64,000 bases of DNA, taken from Methanolobus tindarius DSM 2278 (GTDB lineage: Archaea > Halobacteriota > Methanosarcinia > Methanosarcinales > Methanosarcinaceae). A program made the translations under genes and the position numbers. Positions within the stretch are counted from its first letter, which is position 1. Each line of letters opens with the position of its first letter. Of this stretch, positions 41,291 to 42,676 are shown in pieces. The notes under the pieces were generated by a model. The model was given only the letters and a program-made list of their open reading frames with translations, was not told the DNA's origin and did no database searches. Location: assembly GCF_000504205.1 (NCBI RefSeq), contig NZ_AZAJ01000001.1, forward strand, positions 2,020,879-2,084,878. The letters are read 5' to 3'.

Positions 41291-41407
41291 CGCCGAGGTT
41301 GGGATTCGAACCCAAGCACTCCTTCCGGAGAAACCGGTCTCGAGCCAGTCGCGTTTGGACTCCGGGGCTGTTAAGCCAAACGGATTAGTCCGCTCTGCCA
41401 CCTCGGC
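41291..41407 (-). tRNA. tRNA-Ser(CGA) with a 31-base insertion in the D-arm
   Basis: On the minus strand the acceptor stem GCCGAGG pairs with CCTCGGC, followed by discriminator G. The anticodon arm ACTGG-CTCGAGA-CCGGT has anticodon CGA (41342-41340). A serine-type long variable arm (CTCC-GGAA-GGAG) and a T-arm TTGGG-TTCGAAT-CCCAA complete it. No CCA is encoded. The segment 41353-41383 is extra. Deleting exactly these 31 bases gives D-arm GCA-GAGCGGACTAA-TGC and an 86-base tRNA. The insert forms a hairpin (CGTTTGG with CCAAACG). It looks like an intron, but I could not draw a clean bulge-helix-bulge. Confidence 0.85.
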
Positions 41408-41455
41408 ACAGTGAATTTGAAGGTCTTAATGTCTTAAAAATGTATCGAACGAATA

Positions 41456-42676
41456 TTAAAAGTCAAAAAGGGAACTCTGGCTTTTTTTCGGAGCAATTTC
41501 TTCTTTAGTATCAGTTTCTTCCGGTATCGCGATATGACCGTATTGACCGCCGCCACCTGGGTGGACTATAAGTTTCTTTTCCCGAAAGGCAAGTATTGCA
41601 TTTGAAATGCGTTTGTCAAGGAATGCCATGTCATCAATTTCTGCATTCAGGAGGACATTGAGTTCATTGCCATATAGTTCCATCAGGCCGTTCCATGCAG
41701 TCTGTACTCCTTTAGTATTAATGCTGGCATGCCCCAGTGCAGTCATTATTATTTCAGAAAGAGGCATCAAGTGTATGTAAGGAGGCCTATACTGCGGATG
41801 TTTCGGAGTGTCAAAATCGGCCAGCTCATTTACTCTGTCCTTTACACCTTTCTTAATAAGGCCGCCGCAGTTGTTGCATTTCCATTTAAGTTCCTGGCAT
41901 TGTTCCAGAGTATAATGTGTATAGCATTTAATACAGGCAGATTCATTGTATTTTCCTTCCTGCGGATAGAAACCTGCATTGTATGTTACTCCATATCCTT
42001 CTTCCCTGAGTATAGCTTTCCGCAGTCCTTCAAAAGATGGTTCCGGGACATTTATCTGGTTGAACTCTCTTGCCAGTTTGTTAGACCAGGGCGAATGTGC
42101 ATCCGAATTTGAGAGAAAAGTAAGTCTGTGCAGTTCCTCGATTCTGTCAGCATAGTCGCTGTCAGCACTGAGCCCAAGTTCAAGGAATGAAATGTAGTCT
42201 GTCATATCTCCGTAACAGCTTTTCAATGAATCGTGATATGCATAAAGTGCTGTCCATGGAGTAAATGCATGGCATGGGCCAATGAGCGCTTCAATGTCTT
42301 TTGCAATCTCGGCTATCTCACATCCGTTGAGTCTTACAGTCGGGCGGCCGTCTGCTGCAAGGTTACAGTACTTGCTGATATTCTCTGCAAGCTCTTCAGC
42401 TTTAGATATTGAGGGCAGCAATAACAGGTGGTGAACGCGGCTGCTATCCTCTATTTCAGTAGTGATTATAAAATTAGTTTTTCCAATGGCTATCGCTTCA
42501 TCATCAATTGATGCTTTCTTGATTTCCTTAAGCCAAAGGGGATGGGTGCAATCTCCCGTTGCAACCAAGTCTATGCCTTTTTTCGCTGCTTCTTCTGCCA
42601 TTACTGGCAGTTCCATTTTATTCGAACAAGCCATCGAATATCTGGAATGCAGGTGAAGGTCGGCATTGATTAACAT
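41456..42676 (-). CDS. endoQ: Endonuclease Q (PHP-type DNA repair nuclease)
   Basis: The 406-residue protein has a PHP domain start DLHLHSRYSMACSNKM (residues 6-21), TGDCTHPLWLKEI near 40, HAFTPW near 136 and SNSDAHSPWSNKLARE near 212. A four-cysteine zinc motif (CIKC ... CNNC, about 268-293) and a C-terminal helical region follow. This is the archaeal EndoQ family, which nicks 5' of deaminated bases such as hypoxanthine and uracil. The C-terminus QSSLFDF fits a PCNA-interacting (PIP) motif. It is followed upstream by PAC2, Nop10 and translation genes on the same strand. Confidence 0.88.
   Translation of the reverse strand: MLINADLHLHSRYSMACSNKMELPVMAEEAAKKGIDLVATGDCTHPLWLKEIKKASIDDEAIAIGKTNFIITTEIEDSSRVHHLLLLPSISKAEELAENISKYCNLAADGRPTVRLNGCEIAEIAKDIEALIGPCHAFTPWTALYAYHDSLKSCYGDMTDYISFLELGLSADSDYADRIEELHRLTFLSNSDAHSPWSNKLAREFNQINVPEPSFEGLRKAILREEGYGVTYNAGFYPQEGKYNESACIKCYTHYTLEQCQELKWKCNNCGGLIKKGVKDRVNELADFDTPKHPQYRPPYIHLMPLSEIIMTALGHASINTKGVQTAWNGLMELYGNELNVLLNAEIDDMAFLDKRISNAILAFREKKLIVHPGGGGQYGHIAIPEETDTKEEIAPKKSQSSLFDF

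Follow-up and report, generated by a model that had tools for sequence, protein, structure and literature searches.

The window, a 64,000-nucleotide stretch of Methanolobus tindarius DNA, carries on its minus strand a class II tRNA-Ser(CGA) gene with the acceptor stem GCCGAGG/CCTCGGC, the variable stem CTCC/GGAG and the T-arm TTGGG TTCGAAT CCCAA. All stems are intact and the anticodon loop CTCGAGA is uninterrupted, but the D-arm is longer by 31 bases. An insert of this size, in an otherwise canonical euryarchaeal tRNA, had been read from the sequence in an earlier note; it is confirmed by the stems and by 86 orthologues. Position p of the tRNA gene corresponds to window position 41408 - p. The features of the locus are:

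41456..42676, minus strand: gene of the TIGR00375 family, synteny anchor upstream of the tRNA (family match)
41433..41440, minus strand: putative TATA-like box TTTTTAAG, 26-33 nt upstream of the tRNA (22 relatives share a conserved A+T-rich block that follows CGATA/CGACA)
41292..41407, minus strand: intron-bearing tRNA-Ser(CGA) gene of 116 nt (sequence and stems; match to covariance model R1, 132 bits)
41386..41407, minus strand: predicted 5' exon, gene positions 1-22 (bulge-helix-bulge, BHB, cut rule and intronless orthologues)
41355..41385, minus strand: intron, 31 nt, best-estimate boundaries (41354-41384 or 41356-41386 would give the identical product)
41340..41342, minus strand: anticodon CGA (sequence)
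41292..41354, minus strand: predicted 3' exon

The closest relatives of the TIGR00375 gene in the genome collection are from Methanolobus, and the neighbourhood is conserved. Neither ARAGORN with default settings nor Rfam at gathering thresholds gives a tRNA anywhere in the window, and with introns enabled ARAGORN miscalls the gene as tRNA-Leu(taa). The earlier note had proposed looking for another tRNA-Ser(CGA) in the genome; a similarity search across its one 3.15 Mb contig returned a single match to the tRNA and no second Ser(CGA) gene. The genome has 46 tRNA matches, and among those whose anticodons were read there are further Ser tRNAs with GGA, UGA and GCU. UCG accounts for 75 of the 1420 Ser codons in the long reading frames of the window. 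The sole gene detected for an anticodon can thus escape a routine tRNA finder. Elsewhere in the genome (L109, G000:C1:1751827-1751914) there is a tRNA of class II size whose anticodon is UAU, tRNA-Ile(tat) according to ARAGORN; this is unusual in an archaeon.

Distribution of the D-arm insert

When 112 genomes of the family were searched at the DNA level, an insert-bearing gene turned up across the whole host genus and in the majority of the other genera; genera g4, g5, g6, g8 and g13 gave no full-length match. A covariance model built on 53 distinct sequences widened the search beyond the family. Altogether, 86 distinct intron-bearing orthologues from six archaeal families have the insert at one fixed site, and it is therefore neither a chance occurrence nor a sequencing error. 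The earlier note had considered that relatives might share a functional D-arm variant of the same length; instead, their inserts range from 16 to 47 nt or are precisely absent.

Within the order, families f2 (genes of 102-108 nt) and f3 (117-122 nt) have the insert, and f4 and f5 have the same tRNA body without it (84-85 nt). In the rest of the class the D-arm insert is carried by family f7, and in the rest of the phylum by f8 and f33, several other families of the phylum being intronless. The intron spans the Methanosarcinaceae and two more families of their order; a different order of the class contributes one family, and the wider phylum another two. Family f7 (L208-L224) has, beside the D-arm intron, a further insert that lies in the T-loop (GGGTTCAAA...GGAAAATCCC), and this extra intron, together with the precise absence in sister families, makes the gene a useful case for the study of intron gain and loss.

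In family f8 (L227-L230) tRNA-Ser(CGA) has, besides an intron of some 17 nt in the D-arm, another insert in the variable arm, and a further tRNA-Ser(CGA) (L231, G251:C3:134743-134865) has no D-arm intron and carries an insert just 3' of the anticodon. Methanosarcina and related genomes (L045, L048, L049, L050, L053, L054, L057, L058, L061, L062 and L065) have an intronless Ser(CGA) gene of different sequence. It sits downstream of the same TIGR00375 gene, which suggests replacement in place. Despite this shared neighbour it was rejected as an intronless reference, its body and D-arm (GTCTAGTGGTAAGGC) being different; as a gene that has been replaced or has diverged strongly, it says nothing about the junction.

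Structure of the predicted precursor

The insert lies between tRNA positions 21 and 22, and a canonical tRNA intron, which would be found at 37/38, is ruled out. A group I intron is likewise ruled out by size (31 nt, as compared with a catalytic core of a few hundred nucleotides) and by the lack of an Rfam match. The elements of the exon-intron fold are:

41388..41391, minus strand: central helix, 5' strand GGAC, in the exon (G18 G19 A20 C20a), paired in 86/86
41357..41360, minus strand: central helix, 3' strand GUCC, in the intron (GUCC, GUCU or GUUC among orthologues), paired in 86/86
41385..41387, minus strand: 5' bulge UAA, predicted to be cut between 41386 and 41385 (5' splice site)
41353..41356, minus strand: 3' bulge AAA(C), predicted to be cut between 41355 and 41354 (3' splice site)
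41381..41384, minus strand: inner helix, 5' strand UCCG (compensatory changes)
41361..41364, minus strand: inner helix, 3' strand CGGA (compensatory changes)

In every one of the 86 distinct intron-bearing genes, GGAC of the 5' exon pairs with the 3' part of the insert and leaves a 3-nt 5' bulge. An inner helix of at least 3 bp is also present in all 86, with compensatory forms UCC/GGA, UCU/AGA, UCG/CGA, CUC/GAG and UUC/GAA. When the 3' strands were shuffled among sequences, pairing fell to a mean of 73.1 of 86 and reached 86 in 0 of 10000 trials, a frequency that is not a probability because related sequences are not independent. Over the whole structure, in an alignment of 53 sequences, 98.1% of cells are paired and 12 pairs show double changes, as compared with 94.0% and 6.1 in shuffles; pairing and covariation together exceed all 500 shuffles, and sliding the partners by 1-3 columns reduces pairing to about half or below. 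The hairpin that the earlier note had seen in the insert is thus real and conserved.

The 3' bulge reads AAA, AUA, CAA, UAA or ACA (mostly AWA), followed by C or U and then by GC. This GC is able to pair with G15-C16; the two resulting outer G-C pairs are invariant and in competition with the D-stem, and if both form, the 3' bulge is of 4 nt. Compared with the symmetric hBHBh' (3-4-3) motif, which has both flanking helices, the 5' side fits, and the 3' side mostly has AWA plus C/U before the competing outer pairs. The motif can be drawn as a BHB-type element with a canonical 5' side and a relaxed 3' side (a 3-4-nt bulge or loop). The earlier note had been unable to draw a clean BHB, which holds for the 3' side, but the GGAC/GUCC helix, the UAA bulge and the UCCG/CGGA inner helix can all be drawn. 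A thermodynamic fold of the precursor from the window recovers the exon-intron helix and bulge element, and in the lowest-energy fold of the full precursor the cloverleaf is absent.

We suggest, with a probability of about 0.9, that the insert is an archaeal tRNA intron at a noncanonical position in an active tRNA-Ser(CGA) gene, and that it is removed by BHB splicing through the endonuclease EndA. In the precursor, GGAC of the exon would pair with GUCC of the intron as a 4-bp helix, flanked by the 3-nt 5' bulge UAA and the 3-4-nt 3' bulge or loop AAAC, i.e. a relaxed BHB or a bulge-helix-loop. An alpha'2-type EndA would cut each bulge between its second and third bases, the sites being those predicted above, and a ligase would presumably join the exons, yielding a mature D-arm GGCAGAGCGGACUAACGCG.

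Predicted splice sites and mature D-arm

In BHB splicing, each bulge is cut after its second base. Applied to the conserved bulges, this rule places the intron at 41355-41385, and excision of 41354-41384, 41355-41385 or 41356-41386 gives the same product, GGACTAACGCG. The intronless orthologues of sister families f4 and f5 read GGACTAACGCG exactly, and their D-arm, GGACUAACGCG, is the one that the BHB rule would produce. The earlier note had instead placed the excision at exactly 41353-41383, as restoring a perfect D-stem. Such a cut gives GGACTAATGCG and does restore the GCA...TGC stem stated there, but the BHB rule and f4/f5 favour 41355-41385.

Removal of exactly 41353-41383, two bases downstream of the predicted sites, seems quite improbable. 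It would provide a paired A12-U23 in nearly all intron-bearing genes, and 78 of the 86 products would match the D-arm of some intronless gene; the GGACTAATGCG form itself is present in some of the more distant ones (L237, L239). No BHB fits these cuts, however: by inspection and in a cut-shift test, the required 4-bp helix two bases upstream of both cuts is unpaired. The nearest intronless orthologues (f4, f5) have C23, and in 8 of the 86 genes a cut of this type would leave GGACAATTGCG, GGACTATTGCG or GGACAAGCGCG, none of which occurs in any intronless gene. In the GGACAAGCGCG case the base in question is a C that pairs with G in CUCUG/CAGAG and has changed along with its intron partner. Three points, namely the BHB rule, the nearer relatives and the unmatched products in 8 of 86 genes, make 41355-41385 the probable intron as far as the sequences indicate, two bases off 41353-41383.

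With the intron at 41355-41385, the mature D-stem would probably contain A12-C23 and not A12-U23. The predicted pair 12-23 is A-C in 71 of the 86 genes and A-U in 15; the intronless genes have both, C and U alternating at position 23 among relatives. The tRNA may tolerate the mismatch, or editing may act on C23. Repair of the mismatch in the mature tRNA, either by C23 to U editing or by a shifted cut giving U23, appears unlikely; if it occurs, it would amount to a new site of tRNA editing or to a break with the EndA cut rule.

Retention of the insert, giving a mature tRNA with an enlarged D-arm, is highly improbable: the insert does form a stable and conserved hairpin, but its length varies widely among orthologues, the conserved parts are the exon-intron helix and bulge, and the intronless orthologues equal the excised form. 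The earlier note had also allowed that the gene may be inactive, which is very unlikely, and a pseudogene disrupted by insertion is hardly conceivable: standard finders miss the gene, but all its stems are whole and show double compensatory changes, the promoter-like upstream block is conserved, the insert is common to six families, and the genome search gave no further Ser(CGA) gene. That the gene is under selection is indicated by double compensatory changes in its anticodon and variable stems, by the conserved TATA-like block and by the conserved neighbourhood; from this sequence evidence the tRNA-Ser(CGA) gene is very probably working and not broken.

The splicing endonuclease and known tRNA introns

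The genome has one EndA gene (G000:C1:2535559-2536368), whose product joins two tandem PF01974 domains in one chain. Its best match is the curated model NF006795, above cut-off, and residues 23-341 align with the Archaeoglobus fulgidus enzyme (PDB 1r0v/2gjw). Two PF01974 domains in one reading frame were found in all 9 genomes sampled. This two-domain, alpha'2-like EndA is likely to be the enzyme that removes the D-arm intron. The same enzyme presumably processes the canonical 37/38 intron of tRNA-Met in this genome (L113, 37 nt by ARAGORN), which lies in the anticodon loop and not, as that of Ser(CGA), in the D-arm. A splicing endonuclease of Methanolobus psychrophilus has been reported, in work cited in PMC7714728, to process pre-rRNA, and according to that citation an active splicing endonuclease thus exists in the genus.

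The literature conflicts on whether alpha'2-type enzymes cut relaxed motifs. The alpha'2 enzyme of Haloferax (PMC7714728) and the A. fulgidus endonuclease (PMC12397907) have been described as strict. By contrast, homodimeric endonucleases can cleave a motif of 3-nt bulge, 4-bp helix and loop (PMC8707768), and the A. fulgidus enzyme cuts a bulge-helix-loop at 37/38 on full-length pre-tRNA (PMC6379350). The bulge-helix-loop substrates of these homodimeric enzymes (PMC8707768, PMC6379350) have the same 3-nt bulge, 4-bp helix and internal loop as the Ser(CGA) precursor, although the A. fulgidus example is at position 37/38 and not in the D-arm.

Archaeal tRNA introns at noncanonical positions are already known as a kind. 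Those with a noncanonical BHB in Crenarchaeota, Thaumarchaeota and Nanoarchaeota (PMC3218864, PMC4090602) are likewise small, with a 4-bp exon-intron helix and bulges; they too are precisely absent in relatives, and D-arm locations are among those known. These groups, however, have heterotetrameric (in ARMAN, epsilon2) endonucleases of broad specificity, whereas the EndA found here looks like an alpha'2 enzyme. In reviews, euryarchaeal alpha4 and alpha2 endonucleases are said to act on introns at canonical positions only (PMC4090602) and on canonical BHB motifs only (PMC4033280), and noncanonical euryarchaeal introns are given for only three thermophilic methanogens (PMC3218864). A D-arm intron in a lineage whose sampled EndA is alpha'2-like would be a broad exception to the canonical-only rule, and would provide natural test substrates. 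Methanolobus species are not thermophiles.

The papers searched contain no report of the Ser(CGA) D-arm intron. The tRNAscan-SE 2.0 paper gives 673 noncanonical introns (PMC8450103), among which it may be included, and a tRNA database may already have an entry for it. Elsewhere in the same order, two tRNA-Leu(UAA) genes (L185, G118:C51:12958-13072; L186, G129:C439:62-176) also have a D-arm insert, and that of L185 forms a symmetric BHB with a GGCC/GGCC helix and AAA bulges on both sides.
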